64,000 nt of DNA from Lichina pygmaea. Lineage: Eukaryota > Ascomycota > Lichinomycetes > Lichinales > Lichinaceae. The notes beneath the pieces are model-generated. The model was not told the origin of the DNA. It searched no databases and saw only the letters and a program-made list of their open reading frames with translations. Position 1 is the stretch's first letter. Each line of letters begins with the position of its first letter. Made by a program: the position numbers and the translations under genes. The stretch covers positions 3,658,001 to 3,722,000 of the forward strand of contig OY730171.1 of the NCBI GenBank assembly GCA_963422465.1. Reading direction: 5' to 3'. Positions 1,386 to 58,195 of the stretch are shown piece after piece.

Positions 1386-1399
1386 ATCAGGCTGTCTGC

Positions 1400-2900
1400 T
1401 AAGCGTGTCCGCTCGTGTGTTTTCTGATCCTTTTCAATAGAAGATCTGGAAGTTGTATGAAGCTAAAAGCTCCGCCCATCAGACTTGTTGTCTGTTTAGC
1501 TTCTTCGTCGTCGTGAAGTAAGCCAAATTCTTGTGGTCTGAGTACACGTCCACTGTGTACTTTGCTCCTTCCAGGTAAGGTCTCCACTCCTGGAATACGT
1601 CGACAATCGCTAACAACTCCTTGTCGTGAACATCATACCTGAGTTCTGGGCCAGAGAACTTTCTTGATCAGTATGCGACAGGGTGTAGGCGGTTTTCGGC
1701 GTCTGGTTGACACAAGCAAGATCCAAGTGCTTGGTCTGAGGCATCTGTCTCCATGATGATCCACCGTCCGGGATCAAATGATGCCAGTATGGGTGCGGAG
1801 GTGAACTTCTCTTTCAGCTCCTGGAACGCTCTCTCTTGGCTGTTCCCCCATGTGAAGGTTTCTTCCTTCTTTGTTAGTTCAGTCAAGGGTGCTGCTGTCC
1901 TCGAGTACTCCTTGATGAATCATCAGTAGAAGTTCGCAAATCCCAGGAAGGATTGGACTTCTTTGAGGTTTTTGGGTGTTGGCCAGTCTTGTACTGCCGT
2001 GATCTTTGTATCGTCCATACAGATTCCTTCCGTCGTCAGGATCAATCCCAAATATTCCACTTCTTTCATGTGGAAGACGCTCTTATCAAGGCGTAACCTC
2101 ATTCCTGCTTCTTGGAGTGCATGTAGAATCTTCTTGACATGCTGTTTGTGCTCCTCCAGGGTTCCATTGGTGTAAACCAAGACATCGTCGATATAAGCGG
2201 TAACAAATATATCCAGGTATTGTCGGAGGATGGTGTTAATGAGCGATTGGAACATCGCCGGTGCATTCGTAAGGCCGAATGGCATAACAGTATACTCGTA
2301 ATGCCCGTACCTTGTATGAAAGGCTGTCTTCCATTCTTCGCCATCTTTCATCCTAACCAGGTTGAAAGCGCCTCGGATGTTGAACTTGGTAAACCACTTG
2401 GCTCCTTGGATTCAGTCCTGGATTTCCGATATTAACGGTAGTGGGTAGCGATTCTTAATCGTGATCGCATTAAGCTGCCGGTAGTCGACACACAGTCGTA
2501 ATTTGCTGTCTTTCTTTGGCACAAACAATATCGGGTATCCAGCCGGTGATGTTGAAGGTCTTATGAACCCTTTCGCTAGGTTCTCGTCCAGGTAATCTCT
2601 TAAGGCCTCAAGCTCCTTTGCTGATAGGGCGTAAATAGGGCTGTGTGTGGGTTTCTTTCCGTCTTCCAGCGGAATTTCGTGGTCCCACTCTTGGTGTTCT
2701 GGTAGCGTCGCGACTGCTTCCTCACCAAACATCTCCTGGTAGTCTTTATACTCACTTGGCAGCTGCGGTGCCTGAGTCTCGCCCACGGCGTCATGCGTGG
2801 TGCAAAGTTGATGGTTTCGGGGCTTCATCCAAGCCACATAGGCTCGCCCTTGCCGGTGGTGCTTCTTCCACCCTGCATATAAGATCTCTTTGATTCTCAC
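1400..2900 (-). pseudogene. G1a reverse transcriptase and RNase H (fossil)
   Basis: Central pol. RT is recognised at 1923-2900 (minus) by [24 protein letters not shown], the FGLTNAPAMFQ block, TAYIDDVLVYTNG (the YxDD catalytic box) and VQSFLGFANFY. RNase H follows at about 1400-1886 with IIMETDASDQALGSCLCQ and DHKNLAYF-type sequence. These domains copy the element RNA into DNA and remove the RNA strand. Broken in several places; the same region in copy G1b is at 53300-54800. Confidence 0.9.
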
Positions 2901-2915
2901 TTTCTCTGGCTCTGC

Positions 2916-3476
2916 TCAAGTTGCCAGACTCCTCTTCGGAAAGACTAGGTGCCTTCTTTTCCAGTCGATCCTTGGGTTTTGACTTTCCAACCACGGAAGA
3001 CCCAATATAACTTCATGTGGTATCTGGACCAAGTCGAATTCTTCTGATCTGATTGTCGTACTGTCGACACACAGTCGTAGGTTCTTGGTCTCCTTCGTCA
3101 CTTGTCCTTGGTTGTTGGAGAGTGGTGTCCTGTCCACTACCGTTAGTTGGTATGGATTCCTCTTTTCCTGAGTCAGGATCTTGTGCTTCCTGGCGAAACT
3201 TTCTGACATGAAGTTGCCAGTAGCTCCAGAGTCGATCATGGCGTTTGTCAGGTGCCTGTTGACTCTCATCCTGATGCGAAAATGCGGACTGCAGGCTGTC
3301 GCGTCAAGGCTCTGCTCGACCCCTTCTCTCCGGAGTGTTGTCTTGCCTGCTCTTCCGACTCCGGATTTGAAGAGCACTGCTAGTTTTTTGAACAACCAAG
3401 GCCCTGAGCCTGGCGTTCTGCCACGTGTCTTTCGCATTTTTCGGTGAAGCATAGCTCCCATGCGTCTTCTCCGCAA
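2916..3476 (-). pseudogene. G1a aspartic protease (fossil)
   Basis: Retropepsin-type region between Gag and RT. The active-site box reads TNAMIDSGATGNFMSESF, and downstream LVQIPHEVILGLPWLESQNP is the flap/ILG-type C-terminal half typical of Gypsy proteases. It would cleave the Gag-Pol polyprotein. Open over 186 codons here. Part of a broken element. Confidence 0.85.
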
Positions 3477-4924
3477 TCATCGCGTTCTTTCCCTTGCTGG
3501 CTTAGCTGGTGCTTGATGCTCCAGGCTTTCTTGTGGTATTCTGGGCCAGGGAAGTAGTGCCTTCTCCTTTTCTCTAGGAGATGTTCCTTGCAGTGGTGGT
3601 CCTCGCATCCTTTCCAATAAGGACGTCTGCAGGCCGGTGTCGTAGCCTGGTGATGGTCCACTTGCGCTGCGATGTCTCGGGGCTGTGAGATGCTGATGGT
3701 GTCGTCCACCCATCACGTCACTCTTGCTTCGCCGTCCTCCGACAAGGTCGCATCCTGTCGTCAGAGTAGTGGTGTCTCGGGAACTGGTGGCATGCCAGTT
3801 ATGTCAATCTCGTAGTCTGTTGTGTCGAATTCGGAGATCAGGTCATCCTCCCAATGAACCTTATCGATCTGGTCTTGGATTGCGTGCAGGTCCTCCAGTG
3901 ACCTCTGCAGATCGTTCTCCAGTCTTTCAATGTGCTGTCTGAGATTGTCCTCCTGTCTGAGGAGTGTTGCTTCTGACTGGTTCATGGGTAGCGTGCCTCT
4001 GGGAGCCCTCGGTGGCTCCTGAATACCCTTGCCTTTCCAGGCACCAGTGGCATTCAACTGCTTACCCTTGCCTTCTTTCTTCCTCTTGCTTTGGCAGTTG
4101 GCTGCGAGGTGTCCTACCTTCTGGCAATTGTAACACTTCCGTGTTTCCTTCTTCTTTGTTGCCTGTGGTGTTGTTGCATCAATCTCCATGGGTGTCAAGC
4201 CGTACTTGTCTTGTGCTGGCGCTGTCTTTTTGCCCCATGGCCTTGCATGCTTGCCTCACTTCTCAAGTTCTTGTTCGAATTGTCGGTCGTCGATGCGTAC
4301 CGCTGTGTCAATCATATCCTCAAGGTCGGTGGGTCAGTCTCCTCGTGCGATGTCATCCTTGACTTGTTCCTTGAGAGCTTGGTAGAATAGTGCTGTCAAG
4401 GCACTGTCTCCCCATTGCGTCCTCACTGACAACTGTTGGAACTTCGCCGCAAAGTCTGATGCTGACCCTGTCTGCCGTAGTGCTTGGAGCTTTCGTTCCG
4501 CATCTTGTTCTTCATCAATGACTCCGAAGGTCTTCTTCATCTGGGTCTTGAAGGTAGAGAATCTCCCAATGATCTGCCGTGTCATGGTCTCCATGCTAGA
4601 GGGATCTTCCTTGTTGTCGAGGAAGTCTTGTAGGTAGACATTGAACCAGGCAAATGTCAGTCCGTCCAGGTAGGAGGCTGCGAACAGCACCTTCTCCTGT
4701 TCCGTAGGGAATTGTGCGGTGTTGAATCTGTAGTAAAGCTCAAGCTGAGAGAAGAATAATTCCAATCCCCCTCGTGATCCATCGTACCTCTTCGGCGTAC
4801 CTACCTTCAACGGCTTTGGAGGTAAGGTGAGGGTGGTAGGGACAGGTGGTTCCTGGACTTGCGCCTGAGGCGCAGCCCGAACTTGGCCTGCCTGCGAAGG
4901 GGTAGGGCTGCGTGGATCTGCCAT
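3380..4924 (-). pseudogene. G1a Gag with CCHC knuckle and Cys/His-rich linker (fossil)
   Basis: Gag begins at 4924 (minus), just inside the 5' LTR. The capsid-like part is at 4334-4924 (KRYDGSRGGLELFFSQLELYYRF, retrotrans_gag-like). A zinc knuckle CYNCQKVGHLAANC lies in 3761-4198. Between the knuckle and protease, 3425-3607 holds two copies of a C-x4-C-x2-H motif (CEDHHCKEH and CFTEKCERH) separated by a YFPGPEYHKKAW stretch. The same motif recurs in family G2, so it is a shared domain of unknown role. Broken. Confidence 0.85.
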
Positions 4925-4962
4925 TGTATTGAGCCGGTGTTCTATGTGTTAGAGGCTGAAAC

Positions 4963-5375
4963 TGTTAAAGGCCAGTCCACGTTCACACAGAATGTGGGTG
5001 GTCCTGTCTTTGACTGAGGAGGGCAGGGACTCAATAGATGAATAGCAAGTGGAGTAACTCTCTTGCTATTGTCGCTCGTAATGTGCGTTCAGCCTGGAGA
5101 GCTATTCTCTCCGGCTATCTGGGTTCTTATATACAGGAGCCTGAGGGGGGGGGGTCCTCCCAAGGGGTATCAGCTTTCTGCGTGGACAAGCTGGACGAGC
5201 TGGTTACACATCGTCCACCTTGTCCACCGGGTCGGGTGAACATTGTTCCCGTGGACGAGCTGGACGAGCTGGTTACACATCGTCCACCTCGTCCACCGGG
5301 TCGGGTGAACATTGTTCCGTGTACCTCTGTACACTCGCTTCGGTCGGCTCAGCCGTTCCGGCCTGGGCCTTAACA
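4963..5375 (-). repeat. G1a 5' LTR
   Basis: 413 bp bounded by TGTTAAAGG...CCTTAACA (TG...CA with matching inverted ends). A sense TATA box lies on the minus strand (complement of CTTATATAC, 5126-5134). A tandem inverted-repeat block at 5182-5296 carries GTGGACGAG facing CTCGTCCAC; this copy has a longer unit than the two 392-bp LTRs of G1b, hence the extra 21 bp. Confidence 0.92.
5182..5296. repeat. U3 tandem inverted-repeat block in G1a LTR
   Basis: Two copies of a unit in which GTGGAC(A/G)AG...CTGG(A)C(A/G)AGCTGGTTACACATC is followed by CGTCCACC(T/C)(T/C)GTCCAC, so each unit can fold on itself. It lies between the sense TATA box and the outer LTR edge, the position of an upstream activating or operator array. 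Confidence 0.7.
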
Positions 5376-26678: not shown

Positions 26679-28069
26679 ATAGCTCCCAAGAAGAAAAAAC
26701 CCACCTTTTCAGAAAGTAACACCAGAGCTACACCAGCTATACTCTCCCAACCAGCTCCGAGTCTGGCTAGCACCCAGTCCAGCTCTCCTACCCCCCAACC
26801 AGCTCTCCAGAGTGACTACAAACTAGTAGACTCCTGGATCAAAACTCAACCAGTCCCAGAATCCATTCTGAAAAGCTGGGAAAATATCAAAAAGAACTTC
26901 TTCCCTACAGAAGCCCAGTCTAGCTCTACTGGCCTCACCAACAGAATCTTCCAGGAGCTGGAGAATATCAACAAGCGGCTGGACAAACAAGAAGCCAAGC
27001 CATCATATGCCCAGGCTGTCCAAAAATCTATTCCAGCACAAATCCCTCTACCTGCAAGAATTCTCAAAGAAGTTCTTGTACATCCTGGTATCCAGCCACC
27101 TGACATGGCTAATAGAACTCACATCCAGCTTTTCCAGGCTCTTCAAGACAGACTACCCAGCCCCTACAACAAGCAGGTCAGAGCAGTAAGGAAACTTCCT
27201 TCAGGGGATATCCTTATTAACACAGAAAGCCAAGAGACTAAAGTCTTCCTAGAGAAAAACCCTGCCTGGGTATCAGCTATCTTCACAAAGAAAGCAACCA
27301 TCCAGCCAAAAAGATTTCCAGTTCTGATCCATGGAGTCAGAACAGAAGATATCCAACCTGAAGACCTGGAGAAAACCTGCCAGATAATCCAGAACAGCAA
27401 CCCATCTCTGAGCAAACAAATCACTATCCTGAGAGCCTACTAGTCTAAGAAGGCTATAGCTCAAAAGAAGCCAGTTACCTCTCTCCACCTGGATCTGGCT
27501 ACCCCTGAACAAGCCAATCTTTTGATTGAGAGTGGGCTAGTGCTGGGACACAGGATGCATGAAGCAGAACCTTTTCTGGCAGACACAGTTATTGCACAAT
27601 GTTTCAAGTGCTTTGGCTATGGGCACCAAGCACACTTCTGCAAGAACAAAGCTGTGTGTGGTGCCTGTGGAGGCCAGCATGAAAGGAGAGCCTGCCAAGT
27701 TCCTGAACAGCTTCTCAAGCCAAAATGCTGCAACTGCAGAGGAGCTCACCCAGCCTGGGCCAGTGTCTGTCCAGTACGCCAGGAAGCAGCCAAGAAGGCA
27801 AGAGAAGCATGGAACACACACCCAGGAAAATATGAGATCCCAACAGCTACCTCTGTTCCAGCTCCACAACCCCCCCCAGTTATGTCTTGCCCTCTCTCTC
27901 AGTCTCTACCAGGGGGGAAAAACATAAAACAGCTGAGCCAAGCAGAAGCTCAGAGAGACTCAGAGGTGCACTCCCAGAAGTGCAAATTCTTTCCTCAAGA
28001 TCAGCCAACTCTGGAGGAAAGCTACCAGCTAACTCCTTCAAGATCTTTGATGCTGAGATGTCTGCATGA
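26679..28069 (+). pseudogene. L4 ORF1, Gag-like RNA-binding protein
   Basis: Expected start at 26679 reads ATA where ATG is expected before APKKKKPTFSESN, so the start is lost or another codon is used. Open in one frame to 27440: coiled stretch LTNRIFQELENINKRLDKQ, then AVRKLPSGDILINTESQE and FPVLIHGVRTEDIQPEDLE. A TAG at 27441-27443 is shared with L2 and L3. Beyond it the same frame is open through three zinc knuckles (CFKCFGYGHQAHFC, CGACGGQHERRAC, CCNCRGAHPAWASVC), and a frame change falls at the G/A run near 27910. The last stretch (27887-28069) ends with TGA overlapping the ORF2 ATG as ATGA. Confidence 0.88.
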
Positions 28070-31000
28070 AAGACACAAAGCTGACACTTCTCCAGTATAA
28101 TGTGCAAAAAAGCCAATCAGTCCAAGAGCTACTGCTAGCAACCTCAGCTCTCCAAGAGGTGGACATTATTGCACTTCAAGAGCCCTGGAAAAACCCTCAC
28201 CTAGAAACAAGCACTTCAACTGTTTTCTCTTCCTTTCTTTCTCTCTACTGTTCAGAGATTGGCAGAACACTTTTTCTTATTAATAAAAATCTGAAACTCT
28301 CTTCTCTTCATCCTACCTTCTGGAATAAAGACTTTGTTTCTCTTGAAATCTACTTGGAAAACTCTTCTACTTCTCTTTGGGTACATAATCTCTACTTCAC
28401 CCCATCAAGTCAAGAAAACTACACAGAGGCATCAGAAACTCTTCTCTGTTTACTCCAAAATGCTTTACAAGAACAAGGACAACATATTCTTCTCACAGAC
28501 TCAAATCTTCACCACCCAGACTGGTCAAAGAAAAGAAGACTGTACTCTGAGACTGCAAACAAGTTTCAAGACCTAATGAAAGATTTAAATCTGGATTTAG
28601 CTATTGCACCTTTCACCCCTACCAGAGCAAGATCTTTTTCTGAAAAACCATGTTCTTCTATTGATCTGTCTTTTATTTCTTCTTCTCTTTCTAACTCTCT
28701 GATTTTCTCTAAAGTGGCTCTTCAGTTCTTTCATGGGTCTGACCACAGACCTGTACTAACCTGCCTGGACCTGGATCCTCCAAGGAAAATCTGGAAACCA
28801 GAAAGAAACTGGAGAACACTGGACTCAAACCTTGCAAGAGTAGAGTGTGAGAAGCTACACCTGCCCTTCCACTTCCAAGACAAATATGAAGTGGATGAGT
28901 ACTTGGAGTATCTTGACAACTTTCTCCAAGAAATAGCAAGCAAATCCACACAGCTCCAGAAGCAATCTGGCCACTCAGTTCCCTGGTGGAATCAAGAGAT
29001 CCAAAACAAGGTTAAAGAGGAAAGAAGAGTAAGAAGAAAAGTACAAAAAGGCAAGCAAGTCAAGAGGAACTTGAGCAAGCAACTAAGCTCAAGAAAAAGG
29101 CAGTCAGAGATGGAAAACAGAACACTTTCAGACACCAAATCCATGAGCTGGCCAGCTCTTCAAAGTTCTGGAAGCTTGCAAAGTGGGGAAAGTCCAAAGC
29201 CAACAAGACTCCTGATCTTCCTCTGGTTCCTGACCTGGAAACACAAGAAGGAATAGCCAAAACCTTTGAGGAAAAGACTAAAGCCTTCTCACAGCAGTTC
29301 TTTCCAAAAGCTCTAGTTCCAGAACCAGGCTCAGAAAGCTCCCAGACTATCTCTGAGATACAGCTCTCCCAGGAGGTAACATGTGAAGAAGTGGAGCAAC
29401 TTCTGGCCAAGAAGAAACCTTTCACAGCAGGAGGGAGAGATAAGCTGCCAAATGGATTTCTGAGAGCTCTGGGGCCTAGGTTCTGCCAAGCTCTAGCTAT
29501 TCTGACTTCAACATGCTGGAAACTGGAGTACTTCCCTGAAAGATTTAAGAGTGCAAAAACAGTCTGCTTGAGGAAACCTGGCAAGGGAACCTACAATCAA
29601 GCTAAAGCCTGGCGCCCTATAGCTCTGCTAAACACAACAGGCAAGCTGATGGAAGCTATTACTGCAGCCAGACTAAGCAAGATAGCAGAAGAAGCTGGAC
29701 TATTGCCAGATATCCAGATGGGCTTTAGGAAAGGAAGATCCACAGAAGCAGCACTTTTCCTTCTAACCTCCCAAGTGGAAAAAGTCTGGAAGGAAGGCAT
29801 GGTTGCATCCCTACTCTCACTGGATATCTCAGAAGCCTATGACAGAGTTCTCCCCAAGATACTACAGCAAATTCTGAAAAGAAAAGGAATACCTGCCTGG
29901 CTAGCTTCCTGGATCTACTCCTTCTGTGATAAGCGCTCTACCACTCTTGTCTTTGATGATTCTGAGTCTTGTTCAATTCCTATTCATTGTGGAGTTTCTC
30001 AAGGTTCTCCATTATCCCCTATTCTTTTTCTATTCTACATTTCTGAATTGCATGAGACTGTGCATACTCCCTCTTCTGGTGTATCTGCCCTGGGGTTTGC
30101 AGATGATACAAATCTGCTTGCTTTTAGTCACTTCTTGAAAAGTAACCTTCTGAAGTTAAAGAACACACACCTCAAATGTCTATCATGGGCTGCAAGACAT
30201 GGAATAGTCTTCTCTCCTGAGAAATATGAAATACTTCATTTTTCCAGAAGAAGATCAGACAATCTTCAGCTCAAGCTCAGACTGGGGAATGTGATTCTCA
30301 AACCAAAAGAAGAAGTGCGAGTACTTGGAGTGTACCTAGATGCAAAGCTCCACTGGCACAAACACCAGAGGATTATTTTTCAAAAAGCACAGAAAGCACT
30401 CTCTTCTCTTTCTAGAACTTCCTATTCTACTTGGGGCTTTCCAGTTCACACATCATGTCTGGTGTACACTGCTATACTGAGATCTCTACTGAGCTATGCA
30501 GTGGGGATCTGGTTTAACCCTCTAAGAAAATCCTCCAATATCTCTTCTCTTGTTTCATTTCAAAACAGATGCCTAAGACTTATTGGGGGTGCCTTCAAAG
30601 CCACTCCTTCTTTTCTATTAGAGAGTGAGCTTTTTCTTCTACCTCTAGACCTATACTTTAAATTTCGCACTGCCTGTTTTCTTTCTTCTATTCAAAACTC
30701 CCCTCTCAAATACTTTCTTGACAGTATCTTTTCCACTATTTCCAGCTATGCCTCTCTCTTGAAGAAACCTTTAAAGGAATCCTCAACTATCTCTTCTAAG
30801 TGGAAATTCACTTGGTTAAGTCAAATAACTACTAACCAGGCTAGTTCAAAGAAAGAACTACAAAAGCTCTTTACTAAAGAGTGGGAAGACCAATGGGAAG
30901 AGAAGAAAAGAAGAAGCTATCCAGGCTGGCAGACTTTCTGTCAAAAGCCACACAAAAACAATCTGAAGCTCTACAAAGAGTTACAGAAAGCTGAGGCAAG

Positions 31001-31307
31001 TCTGCTACTGCAAATCAGGACTGGAAGAATTAGTCTGGCAAGTTTTCTTTTCAGAGCTGGAGTTCCTGACTTCCCTACCCCACTATGTGTGTGTGGCCAA
31101 GCAGAAGAAACTGCAAAACATATCACCTCTTCATGCTCTCTTTATTCAAGACAAAGACAACAAGTCTCTTTTAATCCCCAAGACTTCACCACTATTATTT
31201 CAAACTCAGAGCTACTACAGAAGTTCTTGTACTGGTTTATGTCTTTGAAAAGACTAAACCAGTTTAATCTAGCTTTCAAACTCCACTATTCCCAATCCAA
31301 TACCTAG
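28066..31307 (+). pseudogene. L4 ORF2: AP endonuclease, reverse transcriptase, C-terminal knuckle
   Basis: Start ATG at 28066 overlaps the ORF1 stop (ATGA), pointing to coupled re-initiation. Endonuclease 28066-28800: TLLQYNVQKSQS, EVDIIALQEPWKNPH, LTDSNLHHPDWSK, SDHRPVLTC. One single-base frame change near 29050 (KVQKGKQ stretch) divides it; the second frame is then open to 31307. RT: KLPNGFLRALGPRF, MGFRKGRSTEAALFLL, LDISEAYDRVLP, GVSQGSPLSPILFLFYI, catalytic GFADDTNLLAF. C-terminus: WQTFCQKPHKNNLKL, CVCGQAEETAKHITSSC. About 1080 residues in all. I see no RNase H domain between RT and the knuckle, where many fungal Tad elements have one. It nicks the target and copies LINE RNA there. Confidence 0.93.
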
Positions 31308-32830: not shown

Positions 32831-32850
32831 CATCTTGATGAAATCTGGTC

Positions 32851-33165
32851 ATGCCTCCAAAGTCATGTGCGACTGTTAGCCGAACTCAGCTGGCTGCTCA
32901 AATCCGCGATCAGGGTTTTGTTTTGCGTACACCCTGCGACTTTTGTGTTCTCTGTGGTTGTCTGTGCTTCCAGATGCTGGGAGAAGATGATAAGTTGAAA
33001 TGTGCTGCGTGCACTTGGCGTGGAAGGTCTTGTGTCTCTGTGTCCTGGGAATCTTTGAACATGTCCCGGGACAACCTCTGTGAGGATGTTGCCACTGACA
33101 AGACAACACACGATGCACTCTTTGAACAACTTGCCACAGTGCGGGCTTGTCTGTCTCGGAAGTGA
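32851..33165 (+). pseudogene. Antisense Zn2Cys6-type protein, G2b copy (fossil)
   Basis: Opposite strand to gag-pol, starting 44 bp inside the 3' LTR at ATG 32851 (MPPKSCATVSRTQLAAQ). Full six-cysteine pattern: CDFCVLCGCLC, then an 11-residue loop with GEDDKLK, then CAACTWRGRSC, i.e. C-x2-C-x6-C-x11-C-x2-C-x6-C, the fungal binuclear zinc cluster. A helical region follows (DNLCEDVATDKTTHDALFEQLAT). Type II version, nearly identical to G2e. The stretch beyond 33165 shows the family tail in decayed form. Confidence 0.72.
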
Positions 33166-41100: not shown

Positions 41101-42268
41101 CAATGTCATCAATCTCTGACAACACGTCACAAGCTACATCAACAAATGTCTACTATGCCAGAAAAACAAGCATGGAAGACACAAGCCATATGGAGAAGGA
41201 CACCCGAACACGATACTGAGAGGCCTGTGGGAAGATGTGTCAATGGACTTCATCACAAAACTACCCAAGTCCAAAGACCCAGTCACAGGAATCACCTACG
41301 ACTCAATTATGGTGATTGTGGACAGATTCACAAAATACCTAATAGCGGTACCATTCAAGGAAACCCACACAGCAGAGCAGTTGGGACACCTCCTACTGGA
41401 CAGATTGGTCAGGGACCACAGAGTTCCAATCACGGTCATTACTGACAGAGACAAACTCTTCACATCCAACTACTGGAAAACAATCAGTGCAGCCATGGGA
41501 ACAAAACCCAAGATGTCTACGGCCTACCACCCACGAACTGATGGCCAGACAGAGTGAGCAAACCAAGTCCTGGAGACTTATTTGCGGCATCACATCAACC
41601 AGACCCACAGCAATTGGGTACAATTATTACCAGTGGCACAGCTGGCAATCAACCAGCACAGATCAGACTCAACAAAGGAATCGCCATTCTTTGCCAATTT
41701 TGGACAACACGCAAACATCGGAATGCCAAGCAGAGCTTCACCAAACACGGAGAAAGCACTCCAACATGACAAGCTCCTACAACAAACGCACACGATGATG
41801 AGGCATTACCTTCAAGAGACCTCAGAAAAGATACAACGCCAAATGGACAAAAAATCGAAAATGGCACCTCAGCTGAAGAAGGAGGATAAAGTCTACCTCC
41901 TCACAAAAAATTGGAAAGTCAAGAAACCAAGAACAAAGAAACTGGACTATGTCAAGGTCAGACTATTTTCAGTCGAAGAAAGAACTGGACCAGTCAACGT
42001 CAGACTGCGACTACCGAGAGACGCTTGGGTACACCCAAACTTTCACATCTCAATGATCGAATTAGCCGACCAGAGCACACCCTTGCAGGAAACATTTCAT
42101 TACCAACCAGAGGAAGAACAGGAATTCGAGGCTGAACAGATCCTGAAGAGAAAAGGTCAGCGATACCTTGTCAAGTGGAAAGACTACCCAGACTCAGAAA
42201 ATACCTGGGAGCCACTCAGGAACCTTGCGAACTGCCAGCTCCTCCTGCAGCAGTTCCGGCAGGAGTAG
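40853..42268 (+). pseudogene. G2a integrase and chromodomain (fossil)
   Basis: N-terminal zinc region around 41030-41170 (NPAHSHPGITKTTDLIQQ), core 41237-41557 (MSMDFITKLPKSKDPVTG, VITDRDKLFTSNYWKT, AYHPRTDGQTE). 41582-42268 is open for 228 codons: QLAINQHRSDSTKESPFF, EDKVYLLTKNWKVK, VHPNFHISMIELAD and a chromodomain QRYLVKWKDYPDSENTWEP. Its 3' end overlaps the antisense gene tail to tail by about 50 bp. Confidence 0.92.
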
Positions 42269-42647
42269 GACTGAACAGCTCAGCCTGCAGCGCAGACGCG
42301 TCAATGACCGTCGCCGACAAATCTTCACCATCCGCCTCCATTTCAGCAACAAGGCACTGGAGCTTCTTCTTTGCTCGACCCTCAGCACCCTCAAGAACCT
42401 TTCGCTTTCGGGACACACGAGCCTGCAGCTTGGCAAGCTGCTCGACAAGAGCATCCCGCTTGGCCTCATCAACAGCCAAATCCTTGTGAAGGTTATCCCG
42501 AGTCATGTTCAGCGACTCCCAAGAAAGTGACACACAGGACTTTCCCCGACGAGTGCACTCAGCGCACTTCAACTTATCGTTGTTGTCAGACATTCGGAAG
42601 CAGGGCTTGTGGTTCAAAACACAGAAGTCACACGGAGCAAGCGACAC
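42216..42647 (-). CDS. Antisense Zn2Cys6-type protein, G2a copy
   Basis: 143 codons, opposite strand to gag-pol. Residues 6-38 are a complete fungal binuclear zinc cluster: C6-x2-C9-x6-C16-x11-C28-x2-C31-x6-C38 (CDFCVLNHKPC ... CAECTRRGKSC), with the basic residues usual in its loops. Residues 55-95 form a heptad-like helix (AVDEAKRDALVEQLAKLQARVSRKRKVLEGAEGRAKKKLQ region), then a tail ELFSPTPAGTAAGGAG. Such proteins are fungal DNA-binding regulators that dimerise by coiled coil. The family start probably lies slightly upstream (an ATG near 42715). As part of a fossil element it may no longer act. Confidence 0.75.
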   Translation of the reverse strand: MSLAPCDFCVLNHKPCFRMSDNNDKLKCAECTRRGKSCVSLSWESLNMTRDNLHKDLAVDEAKRDALVEQLAKLQARVSRKRKVLEGAEGRAKKKLQCLVAEMEADGEDLSATVIDASALQAELFSPTPAGTAAGGAGSSQGS

Positions 42648-42740
42648 GAAGTTATGATCACGGATCTGGGCTGCCAGTTGGTTTCAGTAAGCAGAGGCAC
42701 GTGATTTTGCAGACATACTCAAGAATTCATCAGGATGATG

Positions 42741-42760: not shown

Positions 42761-43359
42761 TGTTACGACCCAGGGATAGGAGCCACTTATTTATAGGCAA
42801 TCAGGCTGCGGGCCAGGCAAGAGGACACCATGGAAGTCAAGTGACCAACCAACAAGGGGTCACGTGACTGTCAAGACACACACGGGAGTCTTGACGCATG
42901 ATGCATGAAGCATCGAGACAATCTCACCAGTCTCAACGCAGGGTGCATGAAGCATCAAGACAATCTCACCCGTCTTGACGCAGGATGCATGAAGCATCAA
43001 GACAATCTCACCCGTCTTGACGCAGGGTGCATAACATGGTGGGACTGTCGAGACAATCTCACCTGTCTTGACGTCGAGACTGTCAAGACAATCTCGATCA
43101 TCTTGACAGGCCAGCACTATATAGTCTGGTGATAGTTCCCTTATGGAACAATCGTCTTCAGCTCATGTTGTGATCCAGACAACTAGATCTACTTCAATAC
43201 AATCCTTTGTACGAAGCCATTGATCAGGTGTCACCACCACCACGTTCCACCAAACCCCTTCGCACTCCTTGACACTCCTCTCCTGCGAGAACCAACCCGC
43301 CTTCCGCCTCTCGCCCTAATCCTATACTCGGTTAGGACAGCACGGTACGGACCGCAACA
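42761..43359 (+). repeat. G2a 3' LTR
   Basis: 599 bp, same layout as the 5' LTR. The outward TATA (complement of TTATTTATAGG, about 42787-42797) faces the antisense zinc-cluster gene, about 80 bp from the upstream ATG. Confidence 0.95.
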
Positions 43360-43364
43360 TGTTC

Positions 43365-50886: not shown

Positions 50887-50938
50887 TGTTGCGGTCCGTA
50901 CTGTACTGTCCTATCCAAGTATAGGATTAGGGTGAGAG

Positions 50939-51330
50939 TGTTAAAGGCCAGTCCATGTTCACACAGAATGTGGGTGGTCCTGTCTTCGACTGAGGAGGGC
51001 AGGGACTCAATAGATGAATAGCAAGTGGGGTAACTCTCTTGCTATTGTCACTCGTAATATGCGTTCAGCCTGGAGAGCTATTCTCTCCGGCTATCTGGGT
51101 TCTTATATACAGGAGCCTGAGGGGGGGGGGTCCTCCCGAGGGGTATCAGCTTTCTGCGTGGACAAGCTGGACAAGCTGGTTACACGTCGTCCACCTCGTC
51201 CACCATGGACAAGCTGGACAAGCTGGTTACACATCGTCCACCTTGTCCACCGGGTCAGGTGAACATTTGTTCTGTGTACCTCTGTACACTCGCTTCGGTT
51301 GGCTCAGCTGTTCCGGCCTGGGCCTTAACA
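50939..51330 (-). repeat. G1b 3' LTR
   Basis: 392 bp, TGTTAAAGG...CCTTAACA. Sense TATA (complement of CTTATATAC, 51102-51110), a run of ten G at 51121-51130, and two inverted-repeat units at 51158-51250 (GTGGACAAG facing CTTGTCCAC). Confidence 0.95.
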
Positions 51331-51355
51331 CCATCCCCTCCCTCCAAAGGTTCTG
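51331..51355 (-). other. Polypurine tract of G1b
   Basis: Minus strand AACCTTTGGAGGGAGGGGATGG immediately before the 3' LTR start, shortened here: the GGAGGGAGGGGATGG core abuts TGTTAAGG. Confidence 0.82.
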
Positions 51356-51382
51356 TCCCCAGATCCTCTCACTTCTCTTACC

Positions 51383-51913
51383 ATGACCCAGACATCTCGT
51401 GTTAATTATCGTGGAGTCCTCGGTTCTCGTGTTGGCAAGATGGGCAAGGTATCCAAAGTTTCATGCAGCGCATGTTGTCGTGACCGTGCCAAGTGTGTCG
51501 TCAGTTCAGAGTCCACATTTTGCGGTCGGTGCCTTGAGAAGAGTCGCCGTTGTGATCTCCATCTTGCGGAGTCAGAGTGGGAGAAGATGGAGCTTGAGTG
51601 CACTCAGCTCAAGGCTCAACTGAAGGAGATCGAGGAGCAGGAGTCTGTTCTCCTTCCTCGCAAACTTTGTCTCCATCGTCAGTTGGGTGTGTTGTCCAAG
51701 AAGGAGGGTGAGGCCATCAAGCGTGAGCTTGCTGTGATCAAGGATCAGGAGGATCTCGAGCAGGAGGCTACGTGTGTGGAGTCCCCACCGCCTTTGGAGG
51801 ACTTCTTCTCTTCAGAGGCTTTGGCTTCTCTTGAGCCTTTGTCTCCATCGATCCTGGCTTCTGCGGGTTTTGTCAGTGGAAACTCCGCAGTTTCTTGTTT
51901 GTCACAGGGCTGA
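51383..51913 (+). CDS. Antisense Zn2Cys6 zinc-cluster protein of element G1b
   Basis: Open 176-codon gene on the strand opposite to gag-pol, starting 53 bp inside the 3' LTR with a good context (ACCATGACC) and ending at the chromodomain end. Residues 28-57 form a perfect GAL4-type cluster: C28-x2-C31-x6-C38-x8-C47-x2-C50-x6-C57 (CSACCRDRAKC ... CGRCLEKSRRC), basic before and inside. Residues about 63-130 are a long charged helix (WEKMELECTQLKAQLKEIEEQ, KKEGEAIKRELAVIKDQEDLEQ), then an acidic/Ser-rich tail (PPPLEDFFSSEALASLEPLSPS) like an activation region. Zn2Cys6 proteins are fungal transcription regulators. Codon third positions are GC-rich. Function in the element is inferred, not shown. 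Confidence 0.82.
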   Translation: MTQTSRVNYRGVLGSRVGKMGKVSKVSCSACCRDRAKCVVSSESTFCGRCLEKSRRCDLHLAESEWEKMELECTQLKAQLKEIEEQESVLLPRKLCLHRQLGVLSKKEGEAIKRELAVIKDQEDLEQEATCVESPPPLEDFFSSEALASLEPLSPSILASAGFVSGNSAVSCLSQG

Positions 51914-53290
51914 AGTTCTCAGTGGGTTCCCACGAGTTCTCCTCATTGTCATACCCTAACCACTTGACCAGGTATTTGATTTTCTATCCACTTCTCCGGC
52001 TGTCTAGGATCCTTTCAAAATCATACTCTTCTTTGTCGTCCTCGAAGTGCCATTCTGTTTTGATTGCTGCGTCGCTGGGTGCTGGCTCAAGCAGTGAGAC
52101 ATGGAATACTCGGTGTATCCGTGCCTTTTTTGGCGGTCTCAGTCAGTAGTTGACTTCTCCAGTGCACTTCTCAATCTCAAACAGTCTGATTCGTACATGA
52201 TCCAGCTTTTTGCTCAGTCGCTTCGAGCGCAGGTTTTTTGTTGACAAATAGACTTTATCCCCCCTCTCCAGGGTTGGTCTCTTCAACCTTTTGCTGTTTA
52301 GGTGGTGGCTTGTTGTCTTTTGTGCAGATTCAATTGCAGTCTTCATTTCCTCATGCATAGCAGTGAGTTTTTCGACGTTTGTTGAAGTGCCACTTCCAGC
52401 TGCCATCACTTCCCAGCGGGGGTTTCTGCTGTAGTTTGCAAAGAACAGTGTCATGCCTGTCACGCTGTGTTGCTGATCATTGTACACAAACTGAGCCATT
52501 GGTAGCAGTTCTACCCAATCGTCCTGTCAGTGGTTGACGTAGTGGCGTAGGTACTGTTCCATTGTCTGGTTTGTTCTCTCAGTTTGTCTGTCTGTTTGTG
52601 GATGGTAGGCGGTAGACATCCTCGTGTCTATCCCTAGCTGTCTTGTCCACGTGTTCCAGAATTTTGAGGTGAAGAGTTTATCTTGATCTGAGATAATCTT
52701 CGTGGGTAGCCCTCACTGGCTAACCAATTCTTTGAGCAGGACATTGGTGAGTTCGCTCGCTGTTCCTGTCTCTCGCCACAGGATCAGGTGAGTGTATTTG
52801 GTGAGTTTGTCGACAACCACCAAGATACTGTCATATTTCACCTTTGTTACCAGGTCCTCTGACCTCAGCAGCTTCACCACAAAATCTATTGTGATGGCAT
52901 CCCAAGCCACTTCTGGGAGGTCTATTTGTTGACTCTCTCCATAGGGTTTGTGGTGTGACGGTTTGTTTTTTGCACACTCTTCGCAGTTGCGAATAAATTC
53001 TGTCACTTTCCACTTCATTCCGTTGAAGTGGTAACATCTCCAGATCTTTTCCAGGGTCTTGTCTCACCCAGGATGTCTGTGTAGAGGTCCATCATGATGT
53101 TGTCGAATCACGTCCTCTTGTGCACTCTCTGGCACTTCTTCCTTGTTCGTGGCCGCAACATTGTGGTCTAGGGTCAGGAGTGCACCCATTTCTTCAGTTC
53201 TCGCTAACTGAGGTTGAGCATAGACCAGAGTTTATCCTTTTGTCACCAGGATTGGGCGCTCTTCTGTCGTGTCGTCTGTCGTTATATCAG
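51904..53290 (-). pseudogene. G1b integrase and chromodomain (fossil)
   Basis: Chromodomain at about 51910-52030, integrase C-terminus 52143-52499 (MAQFVYNDQQHSVTG, GDKVYLSTKNLRSK), core 52713-53018 (ITIDFVVKLLRSEDLVTK, VVVDKLTKYTHLILW), zinc-binding region near 53000-53200. Same as G1a at offset 51900 but with separate decay. Confidence 0.9.
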
Positions 53291-53299
53291 GCCACCTGC

Positions 53300-54800
53300 T
53301 AAGCGTGTCCGCTTGTGTGTTTTCTGATCCTTTTCGATAGAAGATCTGGAAGTTGTATGAAGCTAAAAGCTCCACCCATCAGACTTGTCGTCTGTTTAGC
53401 TTCTTCGTTGTCGTGAAGTAAGCCAAATTCTTGTGGTCTGAGTACATGTCCACTGTGTACTTTGCTCCTTCCAGGTAAGGTCTCCACTCCTGGAATATGT
53501 TGACAATCGCTAACAACTCCTTGTCGTGAACATCGTACCTGAGTTCTGGGCCAGAGAACTTTCTTGATCAGTATGCGACAGGGTGTAGGCAGTTTTCAGC
53601 GTCTGGTTGACACAAGCAAGATCCAAGTGCTTGGTCCGAGGCATCTGTCTCTATGATGATCCACTATCCGGGATCAAATGATGCCAGTATGGGTGTGGAG
53701 GTGAACTTCTTTTTCAGCTCCTGGAACACTCTCTCTTGGCTGTTCCCCCATGTGAAGGTTTCTTCCTTCTTTGTTAGTTCAGTCAAGGGTGCTGCTGTCC
53801 TCAAGTACTCCTTGATGAATTGTCGGTAGAAGTTCGCAAATCCCAGGAAGGATTGGACTTCTTTGAGGTTTTTGGGTGTTGGCCAGTCTCGTACTGCCGT
53901 GATCTTTGTATCGTCCATACAGATTCCTTCTGTCGTCAGGATCAATCCCAAATATTCCACTTCTTTCACGTGGAAGACACTCTTATCAAAGTGTAACCTC
54001 ATTCCTGCTTCTTGGAGTGCATGTAGGATCTTCTTGACATGCTGTCTGTACTCCTCCAGGGTTCCATTGGTGTAAACCAAGACATCATCAATATAAGTGG
54101 TAACAAATATATCCAGGTATTGTCAGAGGATGGTGTTAATAAGTGATTGGAACATCGCCAGTGCATTCATAAGGCTGAATGGCATAACAGTATACTCGTA
54201 ATGCCCGTACCTCGTACGAAAGGCTGTCTTCCATTCTTCGCCATCTTTCATCCTAACCAGGTTGAAAGCGCCTTGGATATTAAACTTGGTAAACCACTTG
54301 GCTTCTTGGATTCAGTCCTGGATTTCTGATATTAACAGTAGTGGGTAGCAATTCTTAATCGTGATCACATTAAGCTGCCAGTAGTCGATGCACAGTCGTA
54401 GTTTGCTGTCCTTCTTTGGCACAAACAATATCAGATATCCGGCCGGTGATGTTGAAGGTCTTATGAACTCTTTCGCTAGGTTCTTGTCCAGGTAATCTCT
54501 TAAGGCCTCAAGCTCCTTTGCTGATAGAGTGTAAATAGGGCTGTGTGTGGGTTTCTTTCTGTCTTCCAGCAGAATTTCATGATCCCACTCTTGGTGTTCT
54601 GGTAGCGTCACGACCACTTCCTCACCAAACATCTCCTGGTAGTCTTTATACTCACTTGGCAGCTGCGGTGCCTGAGTCTCGCCCACGGCGTCATGCGTGG
54701 TGCAAAGTTGATGGTTTTGGGGCTTCATCCAAGCCACATAGGCTTGCCCTCGCTGGTGGTGCTTCTTCCACCCTGCATATAAGATCTCTTTGATTCTCAC
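53300..54800 (-). pseudogene. G1b reverse transcriptase and RNase H (fossil)
   Basis: RT 54312-54800 ([36 protein letters not shown]) and 53664-54080 (LEEYRQHVKKILHALQEAGM, VQSFLGFANFYRQFIKEYL, TAAPLTELTKKEETFTWG); RNase H continues to about 53300. Several breaks. Confidence 0.9.
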
Positions 54801-54815
54801 TTTCTCTGGCTCTGC

Positions 54816-56824
54816 TCAAGTTGCCAGACTCCTCTTCGGAAAGACTAGGTGCCTTCTTTTCCAGTCGATCCTTGGGTTTTGACTTTCCAACCACGGAAGA
54901 CCCAATATAACTTCATGTAGTATCTGGACCAAGTCGAATTCTTCTGATCCAATTGTCGTACTGTCGACACACAGTCGTAGGTTCTTGGTCTCCTTCATCA
55001 CTCATCCTTGGTTGTTGGAGAGTGGTGTCCTGTCCACTACTGTTAGTTGGTATGGATTCCTCTTTTCCTGAGTCAGGATCTTGTGCTTCCTGGTGAAACT
55101 TTCTGACATGAAGTTGCCAGTAGCTCCAGAGTCAATCATGGCGTTTGTCAGATGCCTGTTGACTCTCATCTTGATGCGAAAATGCGGACTGCAGGCTGTT
55201 GCGTCAAGACTCTGCTTGACCCCTTCTCTCCGGAGTGTTGTCTTGCCTGCTCTTCCGACTCCGGATTTGAAGAGCACTGCTAGTTTTTTGAACAACCAAG
55301 GCCCTGAGCCTGGTGTTCTGCCACGTGTCTTTCGCATTTTTCAGTGAAGCATAGCTCCCATGCGTCTTCTCCACAATCATCGTGTTCTTTCCCTTGCTGG
55401 CTTAGCTGGTGCTTGATGCTCCAGGCTTTCTTGTGGTATTCTGGGCCAGGGAAGTAGTGCCTTCTCCTTTTCTCTAGGAGATGTTCCTTGCAGTGGTGGT
55501 CCTCGCATCCTTTCCAATAAGGATGTCCGCAGACTGGTGTTGTAGCCTGGTGAAGGTCCACTTGCGCTGCGATGTCTCGGGACTGTGAGATGCTGATGGT
55601 GTCATCCACCCATCATGTCACTCTTGCTTCGCTGTCCTCCGACAAGGTCACATCCTGTCGTCAGAGTAGTGGTGTCTCGGGAACTGGTGGCATGCCGGTT
55701 ATGTCAATCTTGTAGTCTGTTGTGTCGAATTCGGAGATCAGGTCATCCTCCCAATGAACCTTATTGATCTGGTCTTGGGTTGCGTGCAGGTCCTCCAGTG
55801 ACCTCTGCAGATCGTTCTCCAGTCTTTCGATGTGCTGTCTGAGATTGTCCTCCTGTCCGAGGAGTGTTGCTTCTGACCGGTTCATGGGTAGCGTGCCTCT
55901 GGGAGCCCTTGGTGGCTCCTGAATGCCCTTGCCTTTCCAGGCACTGGTGGCATTCAACTGCTTACCCTTGCCTTCTTTCTTCCTCTTGCTTTGGCAGTTG
56001 GCTGCGAGGTGTCCTACCTTCTGGCAATTGTAACACTTCCGTGTTTCTTTCTTCTTTGTTGCCTGTGGTGTTGTTGCATCAATCTCCATGGGTGTCAAGC
56101 TGTACTTGTCTTGTGCTGGCGCTGTCTTTTTGCCCCATGGCCTTGCATGCTTGCCTCACTTCTCGAGTTCTTGTTCGAACTGTCGGTCGTTGATGCGTAC
56201 TGCTGTGTCAATCATATCCTCAAGGTCAGTGGGTCGGTCTCCTCGTGCGATGTCATCCTTGACTTGTTCCTTGAGAGCTTGGTAGAATAGTGCTGTCAAG
56301 GCACTGTCTCCCCATTGTGTCCTCACTGACAACTGTTGGAACTTTGCCGCAAAGTCTGATGCTGACCCTGTCTGCCGTAGTGCTTGGAGCTTTTGTTCTG
56401 CATCTTGTTCTTCATCAATGACCCCGAAGGTCTTCTTCATCCGGGTCTTGAAGGTAGAGAATCTCCCAATGATCTGCTGTGTCATGGTCTCCATGCTAGA
56501 GGGATCTTCCTTGTTGTCGAGGAAGTCTTGTAGGTAGATATTGAACCAGGCAAATATCAGTCTGTCCAGGTAGGAAGCTGCGAACAGCACCTTCTCCTGT
56601 TCCGTAGGGAATTGTGTGGCGTTGAATCTGTAGTAAAGCTCAAGCTGAGAGAAGAATAATTCCAATCCCCCTTGTGATCCATCGTACCTCTTCGGTGTAC
56701 CTACCTTCAACAGCTTTGGAGGTAAGGTGAGGGTGGTAGGGACAGGTGGTTCCTGGGCTTGCGCCTGAGGCGCAGCCCAAGCTTGGCCTACCTGCGAAGG
56801 GGTAGGGCTGCGTGGATCTGCCAT
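54816..56824 (-). pseudogene. G1b Gag, Cys/His linker and protease (fossil)
   Basis: Gag 56156-56824 is open for 222 codons (MADPRSPTPSQVGQAW, KRYDGSQGGLELFFSQLEL, DLEDMIDTAVRINDRQFEQE). Knuckle CYNCQKVGHLAANC in 55661-56098. Linker with CEDHHCKEH and CFTEKCERH in 55280-55609. Protease 54816-55337 (TNAMIDSGATGNFMSESF, LGLPWLESQNP). Broken. Confidence 0.9.
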
Positions 56825-56862
56825 CGTATTAAGCCAGTGTCCTATGTGTTAGAGTCTGAAAC

Positions 56863-57254
56863 TGTTAAAGGCCAGTCTATGTTCACACAGAATGTGGGTG
56901 GTCCTGTCTTCGACTGAGGAGGGCAGGGACTCAATAGATGAATAGCAAGTGGGGTAACTCTCTTGCTATTGTCGCTTGTAATGTGTGTTCAGCCTGGAGA
57001 GCTATTCTCTCCGGCTATCTGGGTTCTTATATACAGGAGCCTGAGGGGGGGGGGTCCTCCCAAGGGGTATCAGCTTTCTGCGTGGACGAGCTGGACAAGC
57101 TGGTTACATGTCGTCCACCTTGTCTACCGTGGACAAGCTGGACAAGCTGGTTACACATCGTCCACCTTGTCCACCGGGTCGGGTGAACATTTGTTCCGTG
57201 TACCTCTGTACACTCGCTTCAGTCAGCTCAGCTGTTCCAGCCTGGGCCTTAACA
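56863..57254 (-). repeat. G1b 5' LTR
   Basis: 392 bp, TGTTAAAGG...CCTTAACA; sense TATA complement at 57026-57034; inverted-repeat units 57082-57174. Confidence 0.95.
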
Positions 57255-57259
57255 GAGAG

Positions 57260-57837
57260 GTGGAAGGCAGGTTGGTTCTCGCAGGAGAGGAGTGTCAAGG
57301 AGTGTGAAGGGGTTTGGTGGAACATGGTGGTGGTGACACCTGATCAACAGCTTCATACAAAAGGATTGTATTGAAGTAGATCTAGTTGTCTGGATCACAA
57401 CATGAGTTGAAGATGATTGTTCCATAGGGGAACTATCGCCAGACTATATAGTGCCCAGTTTGTGAGCAGAGTGAGCTCTGCTCACTTTGCTCACTCGGTG
57501 AGATAAGTGAGCTCTGCTCACTTTGCTCACTTTTCATGCACACTGCAGTGAGCTGGGTGAGCTCTGCTCACTTTGCTCACTTTTCATGCACACTGCGGTG
57601 AGCTGGGTGAGCTCTGCTCACTTTGCTCACTTTTCATGCACACTGTGGTGAGCTGGGTGAGCTCTGCTCACTTTGCTCACTTGTTCATGCATATGCATGC
57701 TGCGGTGAGCACCCCCTGGTTTGTCTCACCAGTCACATGACTGGTTCCTGTGTCACACTGTCTGGTACTTCTGTCCAGTATCCTGTCTGCTGCTTTCTGT
57801 GAGTATATAAAGACTGTGTTCCTCCTGGGTTGTAACA
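57260..57837 (-). repeat. G2e 3' LTR, larger part
   Basis: Continues from 50938 after G1b. Sense TATA ACTATATAGT 57443-57452, type II array 57462-57680 with five units, outward TATA GAGTATATAAAG 57801-57812, end TTGTAACA. Carries the same extra unit as the G2b 3' LTR. Confidence 0.93.
57801..57812 (+). promoter_or_regulatory. Candidate antisense TATA box, G2e 3' LTR
   Basis: GAGTATATAAAG, 77 bp upstream of the antisense ATG at 57881; sequence and distance are the same as in G2b. Confidence 0.65.
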
Positions 57838-57880
57838 CTATCCTCCTCTCCATCTTTCATTATCTTGATGAAATCTGGTC

Positions 57881-58195
57881 ATGCCTCCAAAGTCATGTGC
57901 GACTGTTAGCCGAACTCAGCTGGCTGCTCAAATCCGCGATCAGGGTTTTGTTTCACGTACGCCCTGCGACTTTTGTGTTCTCCATGGTTGTCTGTGCTTC
58001 CAGATGCCAGGAGAAGACGATAAGTTGAAATGTGCTGTGTGCACTTGGCGTGGAAGGTCTTGTGTCTCTGTGTCCTGGGAATCTTTGAACATATCCCGGG
58101 ACAACTTCTGTGAGGATGTTGCCACTGACAAGGCAACACACGATGCACTCTTTGAACAACTTGCCACGGTGCAGGCTTGTCTGTCTTGGAAGTGA
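57881..58195 (+). pseudogene. Antisense Zn2Cys6-type protein, G2e copy (fossil)
   Basis: Begins MPPKSCATVSRTQLAAQ at 57881. Cluster CDFCVLHGCLC, 11-residue loop with GEDDKLK, CAVCTWRGRSC; spacing C-x2-C-x6-C-x11-C-x2-C-x6-C. Helical region DNFCEDVATDKATHDALFEQLAT follows. Type II, as in G2b. The downstream tail (58196-58380) is decayed. Confidence 0.72.

Follow-up and report, generated by a model that had tools for sequence, protein, structure and literature searches.

Host element and antisense ORF

Does a Gypsy retrotransposon carry, on the strand opposite to gag-pol, a regulatory gene of its own? The question is raised by one locus in the window (the whole 64-kb stretch of DNA analysed here), for which an earlier note, made from the letters alone, had described an intact zinc-cluster gene antisense to a Gypsy element and had proposed an element-borne regulator. 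On re-check, the coordinates, strand, 176-codon length and exact six-cysteine spacing given for this gene were all correct. The element and its parts are as follows.

50934-50938 and 57255-57259: target duplication CTCTC, 5 bp
50939..57254, minus strand: Gypsy (chromovirus) element, A type (from LTR pair, ends, duplication and protein domains)
50939..51330, minus strand: 3' LTR, the U3 of which adjoins the start of the antisense ORF
51159..51251, no strand: U3 tandem repeats of 47 bp carrying the inverted half-sites GGAC(G/A)AG / CT(C/T)GTCC (found by TRF)
51331..51345, minus strand: polypurine tract adjoining the 3' LTR (read from the sequence)
51383..51913, plus strand: antisense ORF, 176 aa, with zinc cluster, coiled-coil-like region and tail
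51464..51553, plus strand: six-cysteine zinc-cluster signature, CX2CX6CX8CX2CX6C, residues 28-57
51566..51766, plus strand: coiled-coil-like region, residues 62-128 (seen by eye; Spc24 and other families match weakly, below threshold)
51768..51913, no strand: tail-to-tail overlap of the antisense ORF with pol, for the pol end found in 8 of 21 copies
51876..51983, minus strand: chromodomain piece of pol (Pfam Chromo, 4e-10)
53664..54122, minus strand: reverse transcriptase piece (RVT_1), used for counting relatives
56156..56848, minus strand: gag piece (Retrotrans_gag)
56863..57254, minus strand: 5' LTR

We found that the element has the features of a Ty3/Gypsy chromovirus, namely gag, protease, reverse transcriptase (RT), RNase H, integrase and chromodomain in that order, LTRs (392 bp each, with 95.7% identity to each other) and the 5-bp duplication. 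When nine separate pieces were scanned against Pfam, gag, the CCHC knuckle, RT, RNase H, the integrase zinc-binding domain (the only part by which the integrase was recognised) and the chromodomain scored above the cut-offs, protease fell just below them, a Tf2-1-type SH3 domain was also below, and one piece had no match. Among 21 A-type copies, the pol frame ended at the equivalent of 51768-51770 in eight, at a stop at 51873-51875 in five and elsewhere in eight. Since pol reaches 51768-51770 in the first eight, the ends of pol and the antisense ORF share about 146 nt in a tail-to-tail arrangement, and the earlier placing of the ORF, after the chromodomain and before the 3' LTR, needs a small correction; in the window copy, the stop at 51873-51875 shortens this overlap to 41 nt.

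By eye, the A element is apparently nested in the LTR of an element of a second lineage, type G2b (50916-50945, 57246-57268 and 43300-43360), and the sequences on its two sides look like a single R-U5 split in two. The window begins within the last part of a further A-type antisense ORF (G000:C3:3657483-3658010), and the remainder of this first A-type element follows at window positions 1-5375, with an LTR at 4953-5375. Open frames of LINE-like type, with the appearance of endonuclease and reverse transcriptase, were seen by eye at several places in 5312-31307, for example 28066-31307.

A zinc-cluster-like product

Zn(II)2Cys6 proteins have the pattern CX2CX6CX5-12CX2CX6-8C. The six-cysteine pattern of the ORF is not due to chance: with 100,000 residue shuffles per copy, it never arose from two less decayed copies and arose seven times from the window copy. 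The window has 403 open stretches of 60 codons or more, and four hold it, namely the ORF at 51383-51913 and three others, all antisense and beside pol of another Gypsy lineage.

A search with the Zn_clus profile (PF00172), which the earlier note had proposed, had a divided outcome. Zn_clus was the top Pfam match in four of four less decayed copies (15.7-16.4 bits, E about 0.01-0.02), all of them short of the gathering score of 21 bits, whereas the Pfam scan of the window copy gave no Zn_clus match; what it did give, a sub-threshold match to Spc24 (E 0.0056), was rejected as a generic coiled coil. At E values up to 10, Zn_clus was matched by 14 of 18 aligned members, and unrelated families scored as weakly in this member scan (Spc24 0.0056, DNA_pol3_finger 0.0079, Zn_clus 0.0088). 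No second Pfam domain exceeded the cut-off in the antisense proteins scanned. Profile comparison of the A/B family with PDB gave ten weak matches, none significant, among which were LEU3 and CYP1/HAP1 (E 1.5-3.7), as well as a RING finger and others.

The N terminus of the antisense protein is small, basic and cysteine-rich, and in the coiled-coil-like region the A and B types of the ORF have many residues in common. The tail had been called acidic; residues 129-176, with no K or R and five D or E, are mildly but not strongly so. Residue 32, which is Cys in the window copy, is Arg in other copies, a CpG-type change. The start codon stands in the sequence ACCATG, a good context for ATG, in 29 of 30 A copies.

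The product thus resembles GAL4-type Zn(II)2Cys6 regulators in the spacing of its cysteines, its basic residues and the coiled-coil-like region after the cluster, but is unlike them in its sub-threshold PF00172 score, its lack of a second Pfam domain, its location in a retrotransposon and the half-sites beside it, which are not the CGG triplets that such regulators usually bind. By its signature, the product is zinc-cluster-like, and we regard it as quite probably a zinc-cluster DNA binder.

Coding status and selection

The earlier note had pointed out that the ORF is open while gag-pol of the same copy is broken. This is true for the window copy but is weak evidence, the contrast being largely one of codon composition. 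In a set of 21 copies (the window copy and the 20 next best ORF matches, and so biased towards good ORFs), no copy had a stop in the ORF, and one was free of stops in a pol stretch of 799 codons. Codon CGA, however, occurred 0.2 times per 1000 codons in the ORF versus 20.5 in the pol stretch, and accounted for one of 453 Arg codons in the A-type ORF (30 copies) versus 327 of 1163 in the pol stretch (20 copies); in the B-type ORF it was 16 of 311 (17 loci). Because the prevailing CpG-to-TpG decay turns CGA into TGA, stops hardly ever arise in an ORF almost without this codon, and we therefore rejected openness next to a broken gag-pol as proof of function; moreover, open pol frames of up to 1196 codons are present in some of the listed RT copies. 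The rarity of CGA in the A-type ORF may reflect selection against stops generated by CpG decay, or may be a by-product.

A spurious ORF was instead rejected by codon-level tests between types. The dN/dS check that had been proposed was favourable, with an NG86 mean of 0.273 (range 0.21-0.59) over 510 A-B pairs. Specifically, four chosen A/B pairs had dN/dS of 0.22-0.26 in the ORF frame versus 0.34-2.30 in the other five frames, which contained stops in at least one partner, and in one A/B pair, with 27% of sites differing, the changes were distributed 39/29/75 over the codon positions, mostly at the third. Neutral simulations, in which the same substitutions were placed randomly with their CpG class kept, gave 84-92 amino-acid differences between A and B as against 55-65 observed, a value reached by none of the 2000 simulations in any of six runs on four pairs. 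The result was again 0 of 2000 in four of four A/B pairs for codons 1-128, which lie outside the pol overlap, whereas the part of the ORF overlapping pol gave no selection signal in A/B pairs (218-370 of 2000 simulations). Within B, one pair gave 3 of 2000, one gave 0 and one, a B1-B2 pair, was without signal (759 of 2000). Among the regions compared, the zinc-cluster codons had the least change at positions 1 and 2 (0.144). The dN/dS values within families were set aside as evidence, the A-A value of 0.76 (435 pairs) being dominated by decay after insertion; that for B-B was 0.34 (136 pairs). Values for A-C and B-C (0.485 and 0.517) are unreliable, as locus L065 entered incomplete. These tests leave hardly any doubt that the antisense ORF is coding and selected.

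Presence across the lineage

A search of the host genome with the ORF (best 150 of 308 candidates scored) yielded 61 A-type loci (at least 86% identity), of which 53 were stop-free, and 89 others, of which 39 were stop-free. A search with the RT piece (best 150 of 981 candidates) yielded 94 copies at 89% identity or more, designated RT1, and 56 at 79-83%, designated RT2. Among the matches listed, the antisense ORF was found at the expected distance and on the opposite strand in 93 of the 94 RT1 copies (61 A-type and 32 B-type), and a B-type ORF in at least 25 of the 56 RT2 copies; 32 of the best 150 ORF loci had no partner among the RT matches listed. Since 93 of the 94 closest RT copies listed have the ORF, the gene is constitutive in the RT1 lineage. 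The earlier note missed this lineage-wide presence, as well as the three further ORFs of the window and the apparent joint exchange of gene and U3 described below.

The pattern CX2CX6CX5-12CX2CX6-8C was retained in 27 of 30 A copies, in 16 of 20 B/C loci (read in the locus frame) and in the three stretches of the second lineage in the window. Relatives in the protein database numbered 16 for the A type and at least 80 for the B type (best 8000 candidates scored), and all were ENA records without precomputed domains. In the host genome, the taxon markers DUF6533, Pheromone and Hydrophobin were uninformative, being unmatched there and in 14 control genomes alike, whereas HET had 6 matches. At one site, G000:C3:1360173-1362031, two A-type ORFs lie on opposite strands about 800 bp apart, perhaps representing two elements end to end.

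A second Gypsy lineage

The three other six-cysteine stretches of the window belong to a second lineage, G2, with two types of ORF and U3.

42216..42683, minus strand: antisense six-cysteine ORF, type G2a, 155 codons, an open stretch without start codon
42887..43032, no strand: G2a U3 tandem repeats, 42 bp, TCAAGAC / GTCTTGA
57872..58195, plus strand: antisense six-cysteine ORF, type G2b, 107 open codons, then interrupted
57488..57691, no strand: G2b U3 tandem repeats, 50 bp, GTGAGC / GCTCAC
32842..33165, plus strand: antisense six-cysteine ORF, second copy of type G2b, 107 open codons, then interrupted

G2 is a chromovirus lineage too, as indicated by a chromodomain match, and a genome search with G2a gave matches at all 150 loci scored (best 150 of 520 candidates). 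Comparison of G2a and G2b by tiles showed identities of mostly 91-98% in pol, 86-89% at the pol end, 70-75% in the ORF and 95-97% in R-U5, a mosaic like that of A and B. In the two G2a/G2b comparisons, dN/dS was 0.155-0.156, and none of 2000 simulations reached the observed conservation in either. Zn_clus was matched by six of 14 aligned G2 members (best E 0.0019), while the Pfam scan of the three window stretches gave no Zn_clus match; GAL4 was among five weak PDB matches of the G2 family (E 3.6). Profile comparison of G2 with the A/B family gave an E value of 1.2e-4 and a probability of 54%, with the cysteines aligned, and common descent of the two groups of antisense ORFs appears likely, although not certain. 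Public records from elsewhere also contain relatives of the G2 type, including one under the name Watsoniomyces obsoletus. One relative (P0131) has PF27583 as a precomputed domain.

U3 repeats and apparent exchange of the U3-ORF segment

Tandem repeats with inverted half-sites were found in the U3 of all four cassette types, the half-sites being GGACGAG/CTCGTCC in both A and B, TCAAGAC/GTCTTGA in G2a and GTGAGC/GCTCAC in G2b. One unit of each type (for A, from locus L013) was compared with 3000 dinucleotide shuffles. The longest inverted pair had P values of 0.009 (A), 0.17 (B), 0.09 (G2a) and 0.21 (G2b), a clear excess for A and a weak one for the others, and the count of 6-mer pairs had P values of <0.001, 0.011, 0.085 and 0.003, respectively; inverted pairing within the units is thus suggestive, but not proof.

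The repeat units match the type of the ORF. In loci L001-L030 and L051-L070, the A unit was present within the own LTR in all 30 A loci and none of the 17 B loci, and the B unit in all 17 B loci and none of the 30 A loci, the number of matched units per copy varying from one to four for A and from one to six for B. These 47 loci, together with three old C-type loci containing neither unit, make up 50 of the 150 ORF loci listed. Outside the own LTR, B units were found in four A loci.

Tile comparison of an A element with one B1 element (RT1 with a B-type ORF) showed 95-100% identity over R-U5 and again from about 600 nt past the ATG through gag, versus 75-85%, where alignable, in U3 and the ORF. 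With CpG sites left out, the differences in pol were 0.007 for A-B1, 0.006 for A-A and 0.125 for B1-B2 (one B1 and one B2 element), versus differences in the ORF of 0.214 for A-B1 and 0.007 and 0.034 for B1-B2. Because A and B1 are nearly identical in pol and B1 and B2 nearly identical in the ORF, B1 combines an RT1 backbone with a cassette common to RT2. The data suggest that U3 and the antisense ORF have been exchanged as a cassette in both lineages. The two are, however, adjacent and copied in one run, so that their linkage can arise mechanically and is by itself no proof of recognition. In one RT2 element, L072, the gag side could not be aligned with the A element at the nucleotide level over about 1.8 kb, reflecting either a different gag or an insertion.

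Possible functions

We assign a probability of about 0.5 to the reading that the ORF is an accessory gene of a fungal chromovirus lineage, the product of which would, as a zinc-cluster dimer, regulate the element's own U3 in trans, gene and U3 forming an exchangeable cassette. In this model, transcription of the convergent gene probably starts in the U3 of the 3' LTR and proceeds towards pol, and the small product consists of an N-terminal Zn(II)2Cys6-like DNA-binding cluster, a dimerising coiled coil and a short tail. The dimer would most likely bind the tandem inverted half-sites in the element's own U3, located between a TATA-like sense promoter (seen by eye) and the antisense ATG, and such binding would set transcription of the element family in trans, by either activation or repression. 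Once the first strand is transferred to a co-packaged RNA, copying would pass through U3 and on into the antisense ORF without a break, and a later switch back would restore pol. With gene and target side by side, template switching in reverse transcription would move both as one specificity cassette, which would explain the mosaics and keep the regulator with its target; this one genome would show two separate instances of such a switch, one between A and B and one between G2a and G2b.

That the protein dimerises and binds zinc and DNA, where its promoter lies and what its target is, we infer. What stands of the element-borne regulator proposed earlier is a coding, selected, element-borne gene with a zinc-cluster signature, and its regulatory activity is a prediction. 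Action of the antisense protein on the element's own U3 has roughly even odds, a point against it being that the half-sites are not CGG triplets. The fuller idea of a self-recognition cassette, in which an antisense zinc-cluster regulator lies beside the very U3 array that it recognises and is exchangeable with it among fungal chromoviruses, may hold, but is more tentative than either.

Action on U3 is to be weighed against action on the host, which we consider the less likely of the two but the most credible alternative: the selected protein might, for example, be an anti-silencing, chromatin guidance or nuclear localisation factor, its zinc cluster attaching to host DNA or to other proteins. 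A large share of the changes that separate the copies are CpG changes and may reflect methylation of the elements by the host, the U3 half-sites are unlike typical Zn2Cys6 sites, and the antisense protein encoded at the same place in the plant element Grande is described as nuclear (PMC7264820). A host-acting factor does not, however, predict the joint change of U3 and ORF type seen in two lineages, although adjacency alone could explain it. More doubtful still is a product acting on the RNA or particle of the element, as a chaperone or as a trans-inhibitor of retrotransposition resembling Ty1 p22 in effect, with a zinc cluster that binds RNA or protein. The small, basic, cysteine-rich N terminus could bind RNA, and a copy-number control factor is described for yeast Ty1 (PMC4599808), but the spacing is that of Zn2Cys6 rather than of a CCHC knuckle, and gag already has such a knuckle.

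It is very improbable that the antisense transcript matters, through double-stranded RNA control, and that the frame is incidental. A regulatory role of antisense RNA has been considered for several retroelements (PMC7264820), but a transcript alone does not account for the excess of third-position changes, for a dN/dS near 0.2 in the ORF frame as against 0.34 or more in the other frames (with stops in at least one partner, four pairs), or for the repetition of this selection pattern in the second lineage. Recent capture of a host zinc-cluster gene by one element copy can be dismissed even though the host genome has Zn_clus genes (34 of 38 matches above the cut-off), because 93 of the 94 listed lineage members carry the ORF, a much diverged ORF is present in the second lineage and G2-type relatives occur in other records, including that of W. 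obsoletus. Ancient capture from a host is possible as the origin of the gene.

Relation to known antisense genes

The gene brtn is an antisense gene of the Boty-like chromoviruses of Botrytis cinerea and, as described in passages of papers citing it, resembles the gene reported here in being an antisense ORF between pol and the 3' LTR of a fungal Gypsy element with a chromodomain; the same passages do not say whether BRTN has a zinc cluster, is under selection or is exchanged in a cassette (PMC7264820, PMC8365987, PMC4227169, PMC5987419). This likeness between BRTN and our ORF is one of described position and orientation, and none of the related proteins listed, nearly all of which are nameless, is labelled BRTN. 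The paper on brtn is reportedly that of Zhao et al. 2011, Virology 417:248. None of the best-ranked literature matches, whose coverage left out most subscription texts (the brtn paper included), reports a zinc-cluster gene lying antisense in a Gypsy element of fungi, and a word search of PMC3248453 and PMC2864245 found neither antisense nor zinc. The novelty claimed earlier is thus reduced: no zinc-cluster antisense gene was found in print within this coverage, but an antisense gene at this place is on record (brtn; PMC7264820, PMC8365987, as far as their accessible passages go). Antisense accessory genes at this place are known, and the zinc-cluster variety appears to be the new part.

Among plants, antisense ORFs with a TRP28 domain are described for Retand elements (PMC11963269), and Grande, RIRE2 and PvRetro13 also carry antisense ORFs (PMC7264820). 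According to the parts of these two papers available, they have the same position and orientation as the fungal ORF and are constant in their lineages; in addition, they have predicted DNA binding (TRP28) and a putative regulatory role, and roughly half of the elements contain tandem repeats. They differ in having TRP28 and SMC domains and in belonging to another host kingdom, and Retand is not a chromovirus (PMC11963269, PMC7264820). Within the aORF-3R class, comprising antisense additional ORFs between pol and the 3' LTR, the fungal ORF is a constant and selected member that reaches into the pol end by about 146 nt.

HTLV-1 HBZ is an antisense gene near the 3' LTR and encodes a dimeric, DNA-interacting bZIP regulator of its own LTR. 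It is a functional analogy to the proposed self-regulator, the evidence here being limited to matched U3 and ORF types, and its sequence is presumably unrelated to that of the antisense zinc-cluster protein. An antisense promoter in the 3' LTR is among the features noted for HTLV (PMC7264820).

The ORF described here combines a recognisable DNA-binding signature with a candidate target next door, and the natural swaps offer ready-made tests of specificity, in which the A protein could be tried on A and B U3 and the G2a protein on G2a and G2b U3. If the proposed model is true, retrotransposons would regulate themselves in trans by means of a transcription factor and would trade regulator and target as a unit. 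One recombination would then switch the regulatory identity of an element and let it escape cross-regulation by resident families while its pol is kept, which would help to explain the coexistence of closely related families in one genome.
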